DNA from: an uncultured Verrucomicrobiota bacterium
Lineage (GTDB): Bacteria > Verrucomicrobiota > Verrucomicrobiia > Limisphaerales > UBA8199
Length of the DNA stretch: 46,322 nt
Direction of reading: 5' to 3'
Assembly: GCA_903873945.1 (NCBI GenBank)
Contig: CAIQQM010000268.1
Span: 1-46,322, forward strand
The position numbers were made by a program, and so were the translations under genes. Of this stretch, positions 4,084 to 45,824 are shown one piece after another (positions within the stretch are counted from its first letter, which is position 1; each line of letters begins with the position of its first letter). The notes under the pieces were generated by a model. The model was not told the DNA's origin. It did no database searches and saw only the letters and a list, made by a program, of their open reading frames with translations.

Positions 4084-5193
4084 TCAGGTCTGCCCCATCG
4101 GTTGTTGCTGGGTGAGGCAATGCAAGGTGCCAAAACCGAGCACCAGATCAACGGCGTGGATGCCAACAACGGGCCGATCCTTGAAAAGTTCGCTCAGTGT
4201 GCCGAGGGCGATGCGGTCGTTCGGGTCGTTAAACGTCGGGACGAGAACCGCGGCATTCGAGATGTAAAAATTCGCGTAACTGGCCGGCAGCCGGTAATTC
4301 CCGAAGTGCAGCGGCGCCGGCATGGGCAGCGGCACAACCTCCGGCCTCGAACCGTCTTCGAGCCGCAAATCTTTGATTCGATCCCAGTTTTCAGCCAGCG
4401 GCCGGTAGTTGATGTCCTGCCGGTTGGTTTCCCGGATGAGGACCACCGTCCGCGGGTTTACGAACCGGCAGATGTCGTCGATGTGGCCATGAGTGTCATC
4501 GCCGGCGGGGCCGGCAACCAGCCAGAGAATATTGGTCGCCCCGAGATATTGCTTGAGCGTTTCCTCGATGTCCTTCCTCCCGAGGCCGGGGTTGCGCACC
4601 TGGATTTTCCTCGCCAGATAACATTCCTCGGTGGTGAGCAGGGTGCCGCGCCCGTTCACCTCGATGCCCCCGCCCTCGATGACGAAGTCCTTGCCGTTGC
4701 ATTGCGCATGGAACAGGCGTTTGCGCAGCAGTTTCGCGGCGGTTTCGGGCACGCGGCGGTCTTTCTGCCAGTCCCTGTACTTGGCCCAGGCATTGAAATG
4801 AAAATGCACAATCGCCGTTTCCGGTCTTTGCTGCCGCATTCCGCCTTGCGGCGATTTTCGCCTCACGAAGATGGGTCCGCTATCGCGCATCCAGCCACGA
4901 TTGGTGGGATGGACGACAAATTTCACCCGGCCCGGATCGGCGTGGGCGGCACGAAGGACAAGGCGCGCGCGCTTTTCCTCGGCCTGGTTCCTGACGAGCA
5001 GGCGGACGGTTTCGCCCATGGCGAGCTTGCGGACAATTTCGCCGTAAACCCATCGGATGGTGTCAAGTTTTCCGGGCCAGTCGCCCGGATTATGGGGCCA
5101 GCCCAGCCAGGTGGCTTCGTGTTTCTCCCATTCCGCCGGCATCGAAAAACCAAGGCCGGCGGGTGTCTCGGATGAAGTTTCAGCTTGTGCCAT
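4084..5193 (-). CDS. aguA: agmatine deiminase / peptidyl-arginine deiminase family protein
   Basis: A 369-residue member of the Porphyromonas-type peptidyl-arginine deiminase family, in which bacterial agmatine deiminases convert agmatine to N-carbamoylputrescine for polyamine synthesis. The N-terminal PAEWEKHEATWLGWPH, the TNRGWMRDSGPIFV strand, VIEGGGIEVNGRGT, the DDTHGHIDDICRF loop and the C-terminal GTLHCLTQQQP are all present. Cys359 in the last motif is the expected nucleophile, with His and Asp in HGHIDD. ATG 5193 was chosen because the family homology begins right after it and the upstream open frame consists of dispersed repeat sequence. It is probably the first gene of the unit continuing into pta, hisC and the small membrane protein. 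No N-carbamoylputrescine amidase gene lies nearby. Confidence 0.88.
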   Translation of the reverse strand: MAQAETSSETPAGLGFSMPAEWEKHEATWLGWPHNPGDWPGKLDTIRWVYGEIVRKLAMGETVRLLVRNQAEEKRARLVLRAAHADPGRVKFVVHPTNRGWMRDSGPIFVRRKSPQGGMRQQRPETAIVHFHFNAWAKYRDWQKDRRVPETAAKLLRKRLFHAQCNGKDFVIEGGGIEVNGRGTLLTTEECYLARKIQVRNPGLGRKDIEETLKQYLGATNILWLVAGPAGDDTHGHIDDICRFVNPRTVVLIRETNRQDINYRPLAENWDRIKDLRLEDGSRPEVVPLPMPAPLHFGNYRLPASYANFYISNAAVLVPTFNDPNDRIALGTLSELFKDRPVVGIHAVDLVLGFGTLHCLTQQQPMGQT

Positions 5194-5315: not shown

Positions 5316-5546
5316 CCGAAAGCGGCAGCCGCCGTCGCGCCGTAGCGGCGCTTTGGCGCGCCGCGAAGGCGGAAGGGACTGCCGCAGTCCAAGACGCTCC
5401 GCGTTCTCGTGAGAGATTTCCGTTCGATGTTTGTTCCCCTCCTGTGAAAAATCCGTGTTCAATCCTGGGAGGCCGACCTTCGGCTTCAATCCGTGGCTGA
5501 ATTTCTTTTCCCCATCTGTGTAATCTGTGCCATCTGTGGCTAAATC
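5316..5546 (+). repeat. dispersed repeat cluster, family A copy 1, with inserted 17-bp hairpin
   Basis: The gene-free gap 5194-5782 holds a GC-rich hairpin-prone stretch (5316-5400) and then a copy of a repeat also found at 14.2, 19.1, 21.5, 24.9 and 25.2 kb. Shared words are TTTGTTCCCCTCCTGTGAAA, AATCCGTGTTCAATC and a tandem 9-mer run of ATCTGTGnn (about 5513-5540) ending in GGCTAAAT. At 5460-5492 the repeat is split by a 21-base piece carrying a small hairpin, flanked on both sides by CAATCC. Confidence 0.75.
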
Positions 5547-5782: not shown

Positions 5783-8110
5783 CTATTTTTGGAGCCGGTA
5801 AAACTTCGCGTCGCTGTCATTCGCTTCGATTACGACCTGGTTGCTGCCGAGAATGAACGGGGGAGTGGTTATGGTTGACCACGAGTAATTGGTCGAAAGG
5901 ACGGTCTTGGCCTGCAGATTAAAATTGGTCAGCAACATCGACCAGGAGAGCGCCCATTGATTTGCGGAGTAAGGCTGGATCGTGAGCACCGGGAGCGGAA
6001 GGACCAGGGTGAGCAAGGTGCTGGTGTTGCCTGCCGGATTGGGATCCGAATAGCCGCTCGCCACGATTGCGAAGTTGGTGATCGTGCCGCTCGCCGTCGG
6101 AACGACCGTCAGGGCCACGGTTGCCGAGCCGTTGATGCCGATCGAGCCGAGCGAACCAATAATCTGGCTGCCGTTGGTGCTCAATGTTCCAGTGGTGGTC
6201 ATGTTGGAGATAATGTTCACGGAGCTTGGAAGAGTGTTCGTGAGCATGACGTTGGGCGCGGCGAACGGGCCGGTGTTGGTTACAACGATTGTATAAACCA
6301 GGTTGCTCGTCACAAACACCGGGTCGGGGGCATCCGTCACGGTTATCGTGAGGTCGCTCGCGAAATCAATCGTGAAACTGCCGGCGCTGGTGTTGGTGCC
6401 GGCCGGCGCAACCACGGCGATTTGTCCCGAGGAGGGATTATTGGGTACAGTTGCGTTGATGGTTCCATTATCGCTCACCAGGAAGGTCTGGGCGTTGAGG
6501 CCGTTGAAGCGCACCGCGGACGCGCCGAGAAAATTGGTTCCGAGGATGGTCACATTGGTGCCTGGGAGGCCATGGGTGGGGAGAAAACTGTTGATGACCG
6601 GCGCGCCATAGAAGAGGGCGGCGTTGGTGGCCGTCCCCGCCGGCGCGGTGACGCTAATCGGCCCGGTGATCACGCCGCCCGGCACCGTCGTCCCGAGAAC
6701 GGTGTTGTTGGTCACATTGAAGCTCGCGGACAACCCGTTAAAACCGACTGCGGTCGCGCCAAGAAAGTTCTGGCCGCTGACAGTGATCCTGCTGCCGGGC
6801 AGGCTGTTGGTGGGAGAAAAACCGGTGATGCTGGCCGGGAGGAAAAAGTTCGTGACGGTGACGAAGGTGCCGTTGGACGTGGTTACGGAAACCGGGCCAG
6901 TGGTCGCTGTGGCGGGGACGGTCGCGGTGACCTGGGTCGGCCCCAAGACAATGGGGGATAAGGCGCTGGAGCCGTTGAATTTCACGGCGGAAAGGTTTTC
7001 ATTCAAATTGAATCCGGTGATCGTCACATTGGTTCCGGTCGAGCCGATGCTGGGGGAAAATCCGGAGATTGTCGGTTGGAAGGTGAAATTGCTGCTTGTT
7101 GGGAAAGAGCCCGCAGGTGCGGTTATCAGCAGCGGACCACTACTCGCCCCGGAGGGCACGGTGACCTGCAAGGTCGTGTTGCTCAGGGATGTGATGGTGG
7201 CGGCGACGCCGGCAATCGAAAACGAAGTTGCGCCGAGAAAGCTCGTTCCGGTTACGGTCAGGTTGGTCCCGGCCCGGCCGGTGGCGGGAGAAAAGCCGGT
7301 GATGGTCGGCGGTACGAAGAAGTTGGAACTGGTGGTGAACTTACCGGCGGGCGCGTTAACGGCAATTGGGCCGGTTGTCACTCCCGCGGGCGTATAGACT
7401 TGAATCTGGGTGTCGCCTGAGACGAAAAAGGTTGTTCCAGGTACGCCATTGAAAGTCGCGTTGGTCGCTGCCGTAAAATGGATCCCGTTAATGAACACTT
7501 GCTGGCCGGAGCTGCCTTGGGTTGGAGAAAAGTCGCTGATCCAGGGTCCCGCGCCGATGACGACGAAAGAGGTCGGACTATTGGAAGTGCCCAGAGGCGT
7601 GGTCACGCTGATGGGCGCGTTGGTGGCGCCGGCCGGAACTGTCGCATTAAGGTTAGTACCTCCTGAATAGAGGCTGAAACTGGCGTTGACCCCGCCGAAC
7701 TTTACCGCGGTTGCCCCGGTGAAGTGAACGCCGTTGACGGAAATCGTGTCATTGACGGCACCGGCTAAAGGCGAAAAGTCCGTGATGTATGGACCTGTCC
7801 ATACCACTGTGAAAGGGCTCGAACTGAACGAGCCTCCGGTTATGGATAGCGGGCCCGTAGAGACACCGGTGGGGACAACGGCGGTAAGTTGGCCCGAGCC
7901 GGTGACGGTGGTGACTGCGATCTGGCCGTTGTAAAACGTGATTTTGTCGCCCGCCACGAAGTTGTTGCCGTAAACGGTGATGGTGTCGCCGGGCGAGCCA
8001 TACTTGGGAGTGAAATCGCTGATGAACGGCGTTTGTCCGGGAAGCCGGCTGGCGCCGAGAAGGAGAACAACTGCGAAATGCGCGCGGAACAGTTTTAAAT
8101 TGATTCTCAT
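5783..8110 (-). CDS. secreted IPT/TIG-repeat protein with DUF11-like domain
   Basis: A 775-residue exported protein. The N-terminus (MRINLKLFRAHFAVVLLLGA) is a signal peptide. Seven immunoglobulin-like IPT/TIG repeats of about 80 residues follow, each opening with a motif like I-x-x-F-x-P-x-x-G-x-x-G-x-x-(I/V)-x-(I/V)-x-G-x-x-F, to about residue 580. A DUF11-like domain comes next (DLTITVTDAPDPVFVTSNLVYTI region), in which such domains are common in surface proteins. The last ~70 residues (VLTIQPYSANQWALSWS to KFYRLQK) resemble the C-terminal module often seen in exported Verrucomicrobiota proteins. No catalytic domain is visible, so an adhesive or structural surface role is inference. An intrinsic terminator follows; no gene is co-transcribed. 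Confidence 0.85.
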   Translation of the reverse strand: MRINLKLFRAHFAVVLLLGASRLPGQTPFISDFTPKYGSPGDTITVYGNNFVAGDKITFYNGQIAVTTVTGSGQLTAVVPTGVSTGPLSITGGSFSSSPFTVVWTGPYITDFSPLAGAVNDTISVNGVHFTGATAVKFGGVNASFSLYSGGTNLNATVPAGATNAPISVTTPLGTSNSPTSFVVIGAGPWISDFSPTQGSSGQQVFINGIHFTAATNATFNGVPGTTFFVSGDTQIQVYTPAGVTTGPIAVNAPAGKFTTSSNFFVPPTITGFSPATGRAGTNLTVTGTSFLGATSFSIAGVAATITSLSNTTLQVTVPSGASSGPLLITAPAGSFPTSSNFTFQPTISGFSPSIGSTGTNVTITGFNLNENLSAVKFNGSSALSPIVLGPTQVTATVPATATTGPVSVTTSNGTFVTVTNFFLPASITGFSPTNSLPGSRITVSGQNFLGATAVGFNGLSASFNVTNNTVLGTTVPGGVITGPISVTAPAGTATNAALFYGAPVINSFLPTHGLPGTNVTILGTNFLGASAVRFNGLNAQTFLVSDNGTINATVPNNPSSGQIAVVAPAGTNTSAGSFTIDFASDLTITVTDAPDPVFVTSNLVYTIVVTNTGPFAAPNVMLTNTLPSSVNIISNMTTTGTLSTNGSQIIGSLGSIGINGSATVALTVVPTASGTITNFAIVASGYSDPNPAGNTSTLLTLVLPLPVLTIQPYSANQWALSWSMLLTNFNLQAKTVLSTNYSWSTITTPPFILGSNQVVIEANDSDAKFYRLQK

Positions 8111-13989: not shown

Positions 13990-14375
13990 AGGAGGCGCGC
14001 ATTCTTGTAGCGGCAGGCATCCCTGCCGCCCGGCCAAAACACGCAGAGCTCCGATGGGAGCGCCATATTTGTAGTAGCACACCCAAAACGTTTCGAGCTC
14101 CGTTAGGAGCGGCATCTATGTAGAGCGAAGCGTTTCCATAACCTCGTAGTAAATCAGCAGCGGCAGGCATCCTGCCTGCCAGCCGGCGGCATCCCTGCCG
14201 CCCGGTTGGTCCAATTCTCACCACGTTTCCCGCCTCTTCGCGTTCTCCGCGAGAAATTCCCGTTTGATGTTTGTTCCCCTCCTGTGAAAAATCCGTGTTC
14301 AATCCGTGGCTAAAATTACGTTTCCGTCTCCTGTTTTTTCCATTCTTGAGTCCGTGGCCCTGCTTTTCATGACTC
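13990..14375 (+). repeat. composite repeat cluster before gatA
   Basis: The gap 13886-14453 holds no gene. It contains palindromic GGCAGGCATCCCTGCC units (14008-14030, 14160-14205), two related units with GAGCTCCGnTnGGAGC-type inverted repeats followed by GnCATnTnTGTAG (14045-14075 and 14090-14122), and a copy of repeat family A (14233-14330) with TTCGCGTTCTCCGCGAGAAA, TTTGTTCCCCTCCTGTGAAA and AATCCGTGTTCAATCCGTGG. No promoter for gatA could be picked out. Confidence 0.7.
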
Positions 14376-19077: not shown

Positions 19078-19262
19078 TTTTCAAATCCTTCTTCTAGCGT
19101 CTTTGCGTTAAATTCCTGTTCGAGGTTTGTTTCCCTCCTGTGAAAAATCCGTGTTCAATCCGTGGCTAAAATCCTTTTCCCCATCTGTGAAATCTGTGCA
19201 ATCTGTGGCCAAGATTCCGGGTTCTCTTTTCCCGTCCGTGTTTAATCCGTGGCTGGTATTTG
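19078..19262 (+). repeat. dispersed repeat, family A copy 3
   Basis: This lies in the 432-base gap 18975-19406. It has GCGTCTTTGCGTTAAATTCC, CCTCCTGTGAAA, AATCCGTGTTCAATCCGTGG, then three tandem 9-mers ATCTGTGAA, ATCTGTGCA, ATCTGTGGC (about 19182-19210) and a final TTTAATCCGTGGCTGG. The rest of the gap (19263-19406) shows no clear feature besides the leader of the next gene. Confidence 0.75.
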
Positions 19263-21398: not shown

Positions 21399-22954
<1,556 letters not shown>

Positions 22955-24867: not shown

Positions 24868-25025
24868 ATCCTCAAAATCCGTGTTCAATCTGTGGCTAAG
24901 TCCATTCTTGCGTCTTTGCGTTAATGTCCCTCGTTCGACGTTGAACGTTGGGCGTTGGAAGTTCGAAGTTCGAAGTTCGTCTTTTCCCATCCGTGTTAAA
25001 TCAATGTTTAATCCGTGGCAAAGAT
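24868..25025 (+). repeat. repeat family A copy 5 with family D insert
   Basis: It begins two bases after the metX-metW stop: AATCCGTGTTCAATCTGTGG, then GCGTCTTTGCGTTAATG. A second element follows at 24935-24982 (GTTCGACGTTGAACGTTGGG then three GAAGTTC-type units) before TTTAATCCGTGGC resumes. The family D element recurs inside the TMTC-like gene near 44080. Confidence 0.7.
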
Positions 25026-25194: not shown

Positions 25195-25608
25195 TCTTCG
25201 CGCTCCCCGCGGGAAATTCCCATCCGAAGTTCTGTGAAATCTGTGGCTAAAAATCCCGTTCCCCTTTTCCCATCTGTGGCAAAATCCTCGCATCTTCGCG
25301 CCTTTGCATCTTTACGAGAAGTTCCCGTTCTAATTTCTATGGCCGAAAATCCGTGTTTAATCCGTGGCTGCTTTTTGCCCCACTTCCGCAATCCATTTTT
25401 CCGGCGCGCACCAAAACCAAAAACCAGTGCCAAAAAGTGCAAAAAAGTGTCACGGAACAGGTTCGGGACGTTGTCGGCGCGCGGTTCGGCCTGCAGTTTA
25501 CGAATTCCGCAATCCGCACTCCGCACTCCGCATTCGGCAGGCTGGCATATTTGTAGAATGGCGTTTCCAAAACACATAGAGCTCCATCGGAGCGGCATCT
25601 TTGAACCG
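25195..25608 (+). repeat. repeat family A copy 6, then family B copy
   Basis: Bases 25195-25380 show CTTCGCGCTCCCCGCGGGAA, AAATCTGTGGCTAAAAATCC, CCATCTGTGGCAAAATCC and TTTAATCCGTGGCTG. A run of CCGCACT units follows at 25510-25530, then the family B element at 25538-25608, which matches 21399-21468 at almost every base. The whole gap 24867-26181 holds no gene that I can support. Confidence 0.75.
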
Positions 25609-43472: not shown

Positions 43473-45824
43473 ATGATTTTGGGAAGTTCATTATTGGACG
43501 GGCCCGTGCCGAAATCCGACCCTGTACTGACGATGGCATCTACCCCTGTTATGGCTCGGTCACGTTTTTCAGCGTGGCTGGTTGCAGTATTGCTGTTGCT
43601 CGTGACGGTTTTCCTTTACTGGCCGGTGACGCGATGTGACTTTGTCAACTATGACGATCAGGGATATGTCACTGAGAATCCGCATGTTCAGGGCGATTTG
43701 AACTGGGAGGGGGTGAAATGGGCTTTTTTGAACCCTGTGGTCGCCAATTGGCACCCCTTAACGGTGTTATCTCACATGGTGGATTGCCAGCTCTTCGGAC
43801 TGAACCCCTGGGGCCATCACCTGACCAGCCTGTTGCTGCATGCCGTCAACACCCTTCTGGTCTTTTTCTTGTTACGCACCCTGACGGGTGCGCTCTGGCG
43901 GAGCGTGTTGGTGGCCGCCCTGTTCGGGCTGCACCCGTTGCATGTGGAATCGGTGGCGTGGGTGGCGGAGCGGAAGGACGTGTTGAGCACGTGCTTCGGG
44001 TTACTCGCGCTGCTGTTTTACATCCGTTACGCCCGGGGGAGACCGCCGTGCGCGGATCGCGGGTCGCCAGCTCTCGGTTCGACGTTGGATAGTGGAAGTT
44101 GGAAGTTGGGTGTTCGGCCATCCTCAGCCCTCAGTTATTGCCTCGCACTCTTTTTCTTCGCCTGCGGCCTGATGAGCAAGCCGATGTTGGTGACATGGCC
44201 GTTCGTCATGTTGCTGCTCGATGACTGGCCTCTTCGCCGCTTCCAACTCTCGATCTCCGCCTCATCTGTGCAATCCGTGGCTAAAAATCCGGGTTTGTGG
44301 CGCCTGGTGTTTGAGAAAATTCCCTTTTTCGCCCTCGCAGCGGTGATGAGCGTCGTGACCTTCGTCGTGCAGAAGCATGGAGGCGCTGTGACGGAGGGTG
44401 AAAACCTGCCTCTCGGCGCGCGTGGCGGAAACGCCCTGATTTCGTACTGCCGCTATCTGGGGAAGCTGTTCTGGCCTACGGATCTGGCCGTTTTCTATCC
44501 GCACCCTGGGCATTGGCCGATAGCGAAGGTTCTGCTGGCGGGCGGGTTGCTTCTAGGCATATCGGTGTTTTTTATTCTGAAGGGGCGGCGGTATCCGTTT
44601 TTGCTGATGGGCTGGCTGTGGTATTGCGGGACGCTGTTGCCCGTGATCGGGTTGGTGCAAGTGGGGGCTCACGCGATGGCGGATCGGTATACGTACCTTC
44701 CATCGCTTGGGGTGCTGATCCTGACAATCTGGGGCGCTTACGAACTGGTCAAGCGCTGGCGGTATCACGTGATTGTGTTGTCGGTGGCAGGTTCAGCCGC
44801 GCTTGTTCTCTGCATCGGGTTGACACGCCAGCAGATTGGTTATTGGAAGGACGGTGAAACCCTTTTTCAACATGCACTTGAAGTCACGGAGAATAATTCG
44901 CTCTCGCGCAACTGCTTCGGTGTCGCTCTCGGCAAAAAAAGCCAAATTAACGAAGCCATCATCCAATTTCAAGAAGCCATCCGTCTTAGACCGGATTACG
45001 CCGACGCTCACTACAATCTCGGTGGCGACCTCGTCAAGAAAGGCCGAGTCGACGAAGCTATCATCCAATACCAGAAAGCCATCCGTCTTAGACCGGATTA
45101 CGCCGACGCCCACTACAACCTCGGCACCGTCCTTGGCAAGAAAGGCCAAATCGACGAAGCCATCAGTCAACTCCAGGAAGCTGTCCACCTGAAACCAGAT
45201 TACGCCGAGGCTCACAACAACCTCGGTGTCGCCCTTGGCAAGAAAGGCCAAATCGACGAAGCCATCAGCCAATACCAGGAAGCCATCCGCCTGAAGCCGG
45301 ATTATGCCGATGCTCACTACAACCTTCAAAACGCCCTCGTCAAGAAAGACCAAACCGATGAGGCAATCGCTCAATTTCAGAAGGTCCTTGAATTTCAGCC
45401 AAACAATGCCCCGGCCCAAATCAATCTGGCTAACCTCCTGTCACGAATGGGGCGGTTGGATGAGGCGATTTTGCATTACCGGCGGGCGTTGGAAATTTGT
45501 CCCGGCGATGCGGGTTTGCTGAACAACCTGGCCTGGATTCGGGCGGCGAATGCGGAGGCGCGGTTTCGCGACGGTCCGGAGGCGGTGCGGTTGGCGGAGT
45601 GGGCTTGCCAGGTGACGGAATACAAGCAGCCGATGATTATGGGGACCTTGGCTGCGGCTTACGCCGAAGCGGGCCGGTTTGACGAAGCTGTGGCGATGGC
45701 GGAAAGAGCGCATGACATGGCGCTGGCTCTTGGCAAAAAGGAAGTGGCGGATAAGAACGAGGAGCTACTGCAGCTTTATAAGGCCCGCCAGCCCTATCAT
45801 GAACCAGTCGCAAAGGCGCAATGA
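43473..45824 (+). CDS. TMTC-like polytopic membrane protein with TPR tail
   Basis: A 783-residue protein. The first ~480 residues hold about ten membrane helices in the pattern of TMTC/DUF1736 proteins, with the Asp61-Asp62 pair in FVNYDDQGYVTENPHV, HPLHVESVAWVAERKDVLS and GAHAMADRYTYLPSLG. Eukaryotic TMTC proteins are O-mannosyltransferases of the GT-C type; a glycosyl-transfer role here is inference. From residue ~487 come at least six TPRs, four nearly identical. Two stretches (about residues 185-215 and 259-275) are made of dispersed repeat DNA read in frame and replace what should be short loops. The start is uncertain (ATG 43473 or 43533; no clear ribosome site). It stands 50 bases after the E2 gene. 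Confidence 0.85.
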   Translation: MILGSSLLDGPVPKSDPVLTMASTPVMARSRFSAWLVAVLLLLVTVFLYWPVTRCDFVNYDDQGYVTENPHVQGDLNWEGVKWAFLNPVVANWHPLTVLSHMVDCQLFGLNPWGHHLTSLLLHAVNTLLVFFLLRTLTGALWRSVLVAALFGLHPLHVESVAWVAERKDVLSTCFGLLALLFYIRYARGRPPCADRGSPALGSTLDSGSWKLGVRPSSALSYCLALFFFACGLMSKPMLVTWPFVMLLLDDWPLRRFQLSISASSVQSVAKNPGLWRLVFEKIPFFALAAVMSVVTFVVQKHGGAVTEGENLPLGARGGNALISYCRYLGKLFWPTDLAVFYPHPGHWPIAKVLLAGGLLLGISVFFILKGRRYPFLLMGWLWYCGTLLPVIGLVQVGAHAMADRYTYLPSLGVLILTIWGAYELVKRWRYHVIVLSVAGSAALVLCIGLTRQQIGYWKDGETLFQHALEVTENNSLSRNCFGVALGKKSQINEAIIQFQEAIRLRPDYADAHYNLGGDLVKKGRVDEAIIQYQKAIRLRPDYADAHYNLGTVLGKKGQIDEAISQLQEAVHLKPDYAEAHNNLGVALGKKGQIDEAISQYQEAIRLKPDYADAHYNLQNALVKKDQTDEAIAQFQKVLEFQPNNAPAQINLANLLSRMGRLDEAILHYRRALEICPGDAGLLNNLAWIRAANAEARFRDGPEAVRLAEWACQVTEYKQPMIMGTLAAAYAEAGRFDEAVAMAERAHDMALALGKKEVADKNEELLQLYKARQPYHEPVAKAQ
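44938..45345 (+). repeat. four 102-bp tandem repeats coding for TPRs
   Basis: The phrase GATTACGCCGACGC (with one or two changes) recurs at 44994, 45096, 45198 and 45300, exactly 102 bases apart, equal to one 34-residue TPR. DNA identity between neighbouring units is high, which suggests recent duplication or ongoing gene conversion. Confidence 0.85.

Follow-up and report, generated by a model that had tools for sequence, protein, structure and literature searches.

A dispersed hairpin repeat, best filed as REP/SDR-like, in the repeat mosaic of an uncultured Verrucomicrobiota bacterium

The SDR of Nostoc reportedly measure about 21-27 nt and are said to share a hairpin fold across several sequence families; they are also reported to lie embedded in tandem repeats, to include nested copies and to be narrowly distributed. 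The hairpin repeat described here, from the genome of an uncultured Verrucomicrobiota bacterium (G000), resembles these elements in its size of ~20 nt, in the hairpin fold common to its three forms H1, H2 and H3, in its embedding in repeats, in its nested copies and in its narrow distribution, and by this analogy the Nostoc SDR appear to be the closest match in size, fold and embedding. It differs from them in phylum and in sequence, in its G000 host, which is an ATCTGTG/ATCCGTG mosaic, in the GCG or GGG before the stem and in the copies read in frame within proteins. For the Nostoc SDR PMC3116915 cites Elhai et al. 2008.

REP tagged with GTAG or CGTC are short hairpins that carry an unpaired motif at the 5' end; most lie between genes and some within ORFs, and in-frame tagged REPs are present in the verrucomicrobium Opitutus terrae, according to Di Nocera et al. 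2013 (PMC3733652). The G000 repeat is likewise a many-copy stem-loop (130 copies of about 20 nt, at the lower edge of the 20-40 bp of such REP), but in place of GTAG or CGTC its motif is TGCG or TGGG, a linked RAYT was not found in G000, its tandems are head-to-tail and its host repeat is non-palindromic. Rickettsia palindromic elements are about 150 bp long and lie in unrelated genes, as PMC10969869 and PMC3733652 describe them; palindromic repeats read in frame within protein genes are common to both cases (15/15 hairpin-bearing linkers are in frame in G000), whereas the G000 hairpin has 17 nt, sits in a mosaic and occupies linkers of one paralogous family. Repeats of RAYT and TIR-associated Y1 transposases are treated in PMC3733652 and PMC2817692. 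A RAYT-like gene of G000 (L042) has inverted terminal repeats like the TIR-associated Y1 genes mentioned in PMC3733652, but its terminal repeat is unlike the hairpin. From MITE or IS-derived elements the repeat is set apart by its flanks, where in place of a target-site duplication the hexamers are identical in 1/18 copies, as in shuffled data. In the open-licence literature we found nothing on such intergenic hairpin repeats in Verrucomicrobia, or on REP together with tetratricopeptide there.

We class the repeat as a dispersed hairpin repeat of REP/SDR-like character that is mainly carried along by its host mosaic and for which a target-site duplication is unsupported. The smallest dispersed hairpin DNAs thereby gain a Verrucomicrobial case, which also appears to be one of a host tandem repeat mimicking a target-site duplication.

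The hairpin and its host repeat

The window, i.e. the whole 46,322-nucleotide stretch of DNA analysed, is contig C268 of G000, a 3.48-Mb genome in 312 contigs. The 17-bp hairpin with CAATCC on both sides at 5460-5492, reported in the first-pass annotation, is read directly in the window sequence. On the plus strand the left host-repeat hexamer CAATCC (5460..5465, compared with other H2 copies) is followed by TGGG (5466-5469), the hairpin AGGCCGACCTTCGGCTT (5470-5486) and the right host-repeat hexamer CAATCC (5487..5492, plus strand), which is the start of CAATCCGTGGC. T-GGG and the 17-nt hairpin AGGCCGA-CCT-TCGGCTT, with one G-T pair, constitute the H2 module (5466..5486, plus strand), with a predicted RNA fold of -12.1 kcal/mol (z -3.0). 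The family A mosaic around it extends from 5404 to 5543 on the plus strand (repeat families D3 and D8), and both its halves resemble the empty copy at 19100-19212. Four empty family A copies were located on the plus strand: three belong to repeat family D2 (14288..14313, 24874..24899 and 25346..25371), and the one at 19144..19169 is, by repeat comparison and occupied/empty alignment, the counterpart of 5460-5492.

The sister hairpin AGGCCGACGCTCGGCCT at 21514-21530 is present and nearly identical, as had been noted, but belongs to the sub-form H1: it replaces ATC of ..TTTAATCCGTG.., with TTTATGCG and no intact CAATCC before it. It is followed by GTCATC, so that there is no duplication at this place. 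The H1 module (TGCG and the hairpin AGGCCGA-CGC-TCGGCCT; 21510..21530, plus strand) lies upstream of an O-acetylhomoserine sulfhydrylase gene with its ATG at 21653 and a TIGR01326 match above cut-off. In the window AGGCCGANNNTCGGC occurs mismatch-free at the 5470 and 21514 hairpins only, in the latter on both strands; with <=2 mismatches there are 15 matches as compared to a shuffled mean of 7.8, and 3/100 shuffles reach this number.

Both window hairpins sit between likely genes. The neighbours of 5460-5492 are an ORF whose end is at 5783 and an agmatine deiminase-like gene whose start is at 5193; both are on the minus strand and score 260 and 250 bits, under the cut-offs of their models. At gathering threshold Rfam gave nothing in the window beyond one tRNA. 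Another hairpin-like repeat, of the GGCAGGCATCCCTGCC type (family D9), is found at 14009-14205 of the window, and like stems recur in the fetched loci.

A search of the genome for the hairpin had been proposed in the first-pass annotation and revealed strong dispersal in G000: AGGCCGANNNTCGGCY gave 36+43 exact matches versus 0+0 for its reversed control, palindromic copies scoring on both strands. Form-specific searches with <=3 mismatches yielded 63 matches for H1, 38 for H2 and 44 for H3 (reversed controls 1, 0 and 0 respectively), the H1 and H2 results overlapping on hybrid hairpins. The host repeat TCYGTGTTYAATCCGTGGC, searched with <=1 mismatch, has 60 matches in G000 and none in the 12 other-genus genomes of the family. 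The fetched G000 sequence (409,607 bases in 63 pieces, i.e. 62 loci and the window) holds 130 hairpin copies with <=3 mismatches to a class consensus, including 60 H1, 29 H2 and 41 H3, and 45 distinct 17-mers; 9 of 139 listed rows were left out for having >3 mismatches or being overlapping pieces, and kept within the 60 are likely chance H1 rows at 3 mismatches (window 23706, L135:2117 and L138:203, the last lying outside the trimmed overlap). Since the loci were picked mostly around hairpin matches, empty copies are under-sampled. Hairpin copies are found a few hundred bases from the ends of contigs C5, C26, C27, C128, C158 and others, as if repeats broke the assembly.

The three forms have a common plan composed of GCG or GGG, a 6-7-bp stem and a 3-nt loop. 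H1 usually reads GTGTTTAT-GCG-AGGCCGACGTTCGGCC-YGTG, H2 TTTAATCC-(T, ATC or GTC)-GGG-AGGCCGANCTTCGGC-TTCAATCMGTGGC, and H3 TCTGTGAT-GGG-AAGTCGAACTTCGAC-TCTGTG, the last with GTGGCTGCTAT instead on the left in 14/41. As counted before overlapping pieces were dropped, the 5' trinucleotide is GCG in 54 H1 and GGG in 38 H3 and 27 H2 copies. Most G000 copies occupy one or two positions of one host unit in a single orientation. H1-H2 tandem copies occur with a spacing of 23 nt from H1 to H2; in the tandem pairs observed, one copy follows the other head-to-tail at a distance of 18 or 23 nt.

It is probable, in our view, that a dispersed hairpin repeat of 18-20 nt exists in three related forms, of which the hairpin is one, that it is located within or between the units of a mosaic, and that the direct repeat of the window copy represents host units. 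The host mosaic of short repeats (ATCTGTGNNATCTGTGGC, ATCCGTGTTYAATCCGTGGC) is genome-specific. What is observed directly is that the hairpin is dispersed, that it prefers a certain position and orientation within the host unit, that there are tandems as well as hybrids shorter by 23 nt, and that copies reside in frame within linkers. As to the course of events, each hairpin form would have been acquired in the mosaic at least once. Its later multiplication would be due mainly to recombination and conversion within the mosaic and to the copying of mosaic segments, and hairpins may have been gained, lost and fused in the process; within genes just those arrangements would survive which are in sense orientation, keep the frame and are free of stops.

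Spread of the copies, transposase genes and other genomes

Homologous blocks, with 75-149 nt per side, carry either the tandem H1-H2 (L037:5417) or a single hybrid (L023:2768, L002:7003). The difference between them is 23 nt, equal to the H1-to-H2 spacing, as expected after a deletion between two like hairpins. In a nearest-neighbour test on flanks beyond 12 nt of the hairpin, the H1 neighbour shared the label in 75/117 cases by the left flank (shuffled mean 58.1, reached by 10/2000 shuffles) and in 71/117 by the right (reached by 50/2000); for H2 the figures were 62/87 by the right flank (reached by 12/2000) and 52/87 by the left (reached by 531/2000). With pools of equal size, 31 of 59 H1 copies had another H1 as their nearest flank on the left and 24 on the right; an empty copy was nearest for 17 on the left and 21 on the right, and the remaining H1 copies gave ties. 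For H2 an empty copy was nearest in 11 (left) and 8 (right) of 29. The state of the hairpin is thus loosely tied to its flanks, which means that block copying happens together with exchange or gain at a shorter scale; the loose tie favours some movement of hairpins apart from their flanks.

This loose tie, and the presence of hairpins inside hairpin-bearing units as in the tandem H1-H2, would also be accounted for by an SDR/REP-like element which moves by itself without target-site duplication, through an RNA intermediate or a Y1 protein in trans, and which prefers host repeats. We hold such an element to be unlikely, the restriction of most G000 copies to one or two host-unit positions in one orientation speaking against it. 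Two Y1 matches are present in G000, one IS200-like (L041) and one RAYT-like (L042; NF047646, 59.5 bits, under the cut-off of 80), and would suit an element of this kind. A Y1 or RAYT gene acting on the hairpin, suggested in the first-pass annotation, was not found linked to it in G000: in the fetched flanks of L041 and L042 the hairpin is absent from both gene borders. The RAYT-like gene (L042:898-1922) is instead bracketed by its own 42-nt imperfect inverted repeat, 76% complementary, the 12-nt core of which is in no other of the 274 fetched loci. In four other genomes the hairpin is nearby at 1/9 Y1 loci, namely in G120 ~250 nt upstream of the Y1 match; it was rejected as a border of that gene since GTAGCCCCGTAGGGG-type repeats bracket the gene on both sides. 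These G120 repeats are in the same orientation on the two sides of the Y1 transposase gene (L184, about 1328-2045).

Each of the 12 other-genus genomes of the family matches AGGCCGANNNTCGGCY 0-6 times, close to its own control. The 19-mer GCGAGGCCGACGTTCGGCC is found with <=1 mismatch in 8 of 320 genomes of the order, G000 included, and its reversed control in 12 of 320, so that one or two matches in a genome are what chance would give; among the 320 it stands out only in G000 (48), G120 (6) and G262 (3). A shorter pattern, searched in ten genomes (four of the eight with the 19-mer and two of their genus-mates' groups), has 10 matches in G120, 11 in G262 and 14 in G263, with a control of 0 in each, and 2 each in G264 and G119, again with a control of 0. 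There were no matches to it in G261, G265 and G266, and no excess in G255 (5, control 6) and G088 (2, control 1). A near-identical 20-mer is present in three genomes of other families (G120, G262 and G263), where its contexts differ from those in G000. The hairpin unit of G262 and G263 forms head-to-tail arrays with an 18-nt period (L164, L169, L204, L209) and also stands alone, while in G120 3 of ten copies are inside ORFs. Near-identical hairpins in other contexts indicate that the hairpin core is older or more mobile than the G000 host mosaic; this is in line with a self-moving element and suggests, against the mosaic reading, a unit of its own. The only match of the 19-mer in a viral contig is exact and lies directly after a stop codon (L212:7085-7103).

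Out of 186 metY loci of relatives 80 were kept, and none of these has the hairpin in a family A context; bare GGCCGANNNTCGGC matches number four (L044, L068 twice, L101). The best two metY relatives, 85% and 84% identical in protein, are labelled Verrucomicrobia subdivision 3 and Limisphaerales.

Folding and flanking repeats

Compared with shuffles, folding is better for H1 and H2 (z -2.4 to -3.0) and hardly better for H3 (z -1.1, with 32/200 shuffles folding as well). Among the 130 copies stem position 2 is paired as A-T in 46, G-C in 43, G-T in 33 and A-C in 6, stem position 4 as C-G in 88 and T-A in 38, and stem position 1 is A-C in 58/130. The folding of H1 and H2, the variation of pairs 2 and 4 on both sides of the stem and the near-identical 20-mers in other families would be in keeping with a conserved functional site (a terminator, an attenuator or a palindrome bound by a protein) that selection maintains at every location. 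We regard this as improbable given the poor folding of H3, the A-C at pair 1, the mixed orientation of the hairpins relative to flanking genes and the copies within coding linkers; moreover, the pair changes mainly divide the classes, and hence represent few events. An intrinsic terminator was considered and rejected, as a T-run is absent beside the stems of the copies listed.

To the first-pass annotation the CAATCC pair of the window copy looked like a target-site duplication. In genuine target-site duplications left and right copies agree. The left hexamer is readable in 18/29 H2 copies and equals the right one in 1/18, the window copy itself, which is as in shuffles (mean 0.50, p 0.46); the first base is equal in 4/18 (shuffled mean 3.3) and the last in 7/18 (shuffled mean 5.8, p 0.35). 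Agreement of the first base is just 4/18 because the left hexamer begins mostly with T (16/18) and the right mostly with C (24/29). Of the empty host-repeat dimers, which number 14 in the fetched sequence (e.g. TTTAATCC-GTG-TTCAATCC), 8 combine T in the left unit with C in the right one; empty host monomer matches are 58, including the last units of most of the 14 dimers. H3 has TCTGTG on the right in 36/41, and a direct repeat TCTGTG appears only where the left host unit is TCTGTG as well (21/41). Nor is a flanking duplication found at 21514 or in the common H1 arrangement, an outcome that the first-pass annotation had itself named as refuting its view. From the disagreement of the hexamers, the T/C empty dimers, the H3 pattern and the lack of an H1 duplication, the CAATCC pair is best read as two host units, so that on sequence grounds the six-base direct repeat would be a pair of units flanking the hairpin and no duplication made by insertion.

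Occupied and empty host copies, the comparison of which had also been proposed, both exist. The occupied L006:3272 and the empty window 19161 differ by one 27-nt gap, with 98/109 aligned bases equal, and H2 copies set against monomeric empty copies resemble a 27-nt insertion with AATCC flanks (also L034:7823 versus L001:7612). Contrary to the mosaic reading, one ancient duplicating insertion, later block-copied, may fit these pairs too. Similarly, the H1 copy L034:1732 has a 23-nt gap to L147:2070, with AATTCGT kept on the left and CCGTGG on the right, and could hold a short duplication. The pairs cited were read by eye out of 228 candidates that passed; among 26 of the 228 that were listed, several 'empty' partners turned out to carry a hairpin or to represent one and the same locus. 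A free-standing miniature mobile element inserting with a 6-bp target-site duplication, for which the CAATCC on both sides of the window copy and the 27-nt occupied/empty pairs would speak, is very improbable in view of the hexamer counts, of H1 copy 21514 and of the H3 direct repeats. Of the very small mobile-like element proposed earlier, the tiny dispersed hairpin with occupied and empty host copies holds and the target-site duplication is unsupported.

Hairpins in the linkers of TPR proteins

Returning to the dispersed repeat carried by the mosaic, a home-made codon gene model places 32/130 hairpin copies inside ORFs. Of these, 26 occur in a single paralogous family of ORFs and are without exception in sense orientation. 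Most of the ORFs measure 590-850 aa, and two are truncated at the end of a contig. Some six of the 26 copies lie close to the N terminus, where they may be upstream of the actual start. Among the inside copies, L002:2347 and those at window 5467, 21511 and 23706 are implausible as coding insertions, and L009:3643 and L017:3513 are putative inside copies. The paralogous family consists of TPR proteins, the best Pfam stretches of which are all in the C-terminal half among the matches listed; the label membrane protein for this family is our own reading. It is matched in 13/13 genomes of the bacterial family, with 131 matches in G000, where split gene pieces are counted apart. The window member of this expanded family with mosaic-bearing linkers is encoded at 43473..45824 (plus strand), and its linker 2 (QLSISASSVQSVAKNPGLWR; 44244..44303, plus strand, converted from L213) contains a translated family A piece and no hairpin.

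Two linkers of the TPR proteins carry the mosaic, in which the hybrid hairpin reads NPCLCEADVRLQSVAK, the tandem NPCLLRGRRSAHREADLRLQSVAK and H3 DGKSNFDSVPSVAK. With 50 anchor pairs within 420 nt, left anchors lacking a partner being left out, the frame is kept in 15/15 linkers with hairpins and in 34/35 without, and every linker that keeps it is open. The paralogs are related, so that the 15 do not represent 15 independent events. Some second 'hairpins' in a linker (L253) are chance one-mismatch matches, which leaves the linker-level count unaffected. Judged from the reading frames, selection for a functioning gene would leave such a pattern, a function of the insert not being implied. The 49 paralogous G000 linkers, with and without hairpins, constitute a natural experiment in the conversion of non-coding repeats to coding sequence. 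The paralog at L248:1564 has an out-of-frame linker 1 without hairpin, and is a pseudogene or an assembly error.

The 19+40 linkers from fetched loci of relatives have neither the hairpin nor family A. Words of the linkers are also found outside genes, in G000 at 0.361 versus 0.194 for control coding words and in G007 at 0.164 versus 0.071; this test includes overlapping pieces and is indicative only. It is conceivable, if somewhat unlikely, that the 18-20-nt hairpin is a minimal DNA unit which spreads without target-site duplication across several families of one Verrucomicrobial order, seeds the spacers of the short repeats present in each genome and, by way of these, writes in-frame peptide inserts into TPR linkers. 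If true, turnover of non-coding repeats would drive the evolution of hypervariable TPR-protein linkers. The linkers of G007 hold other repeated words, e.g. VSRFTFHVSRFTFHVS, which suggests that TPR linkers are filled in a genus-specific way.
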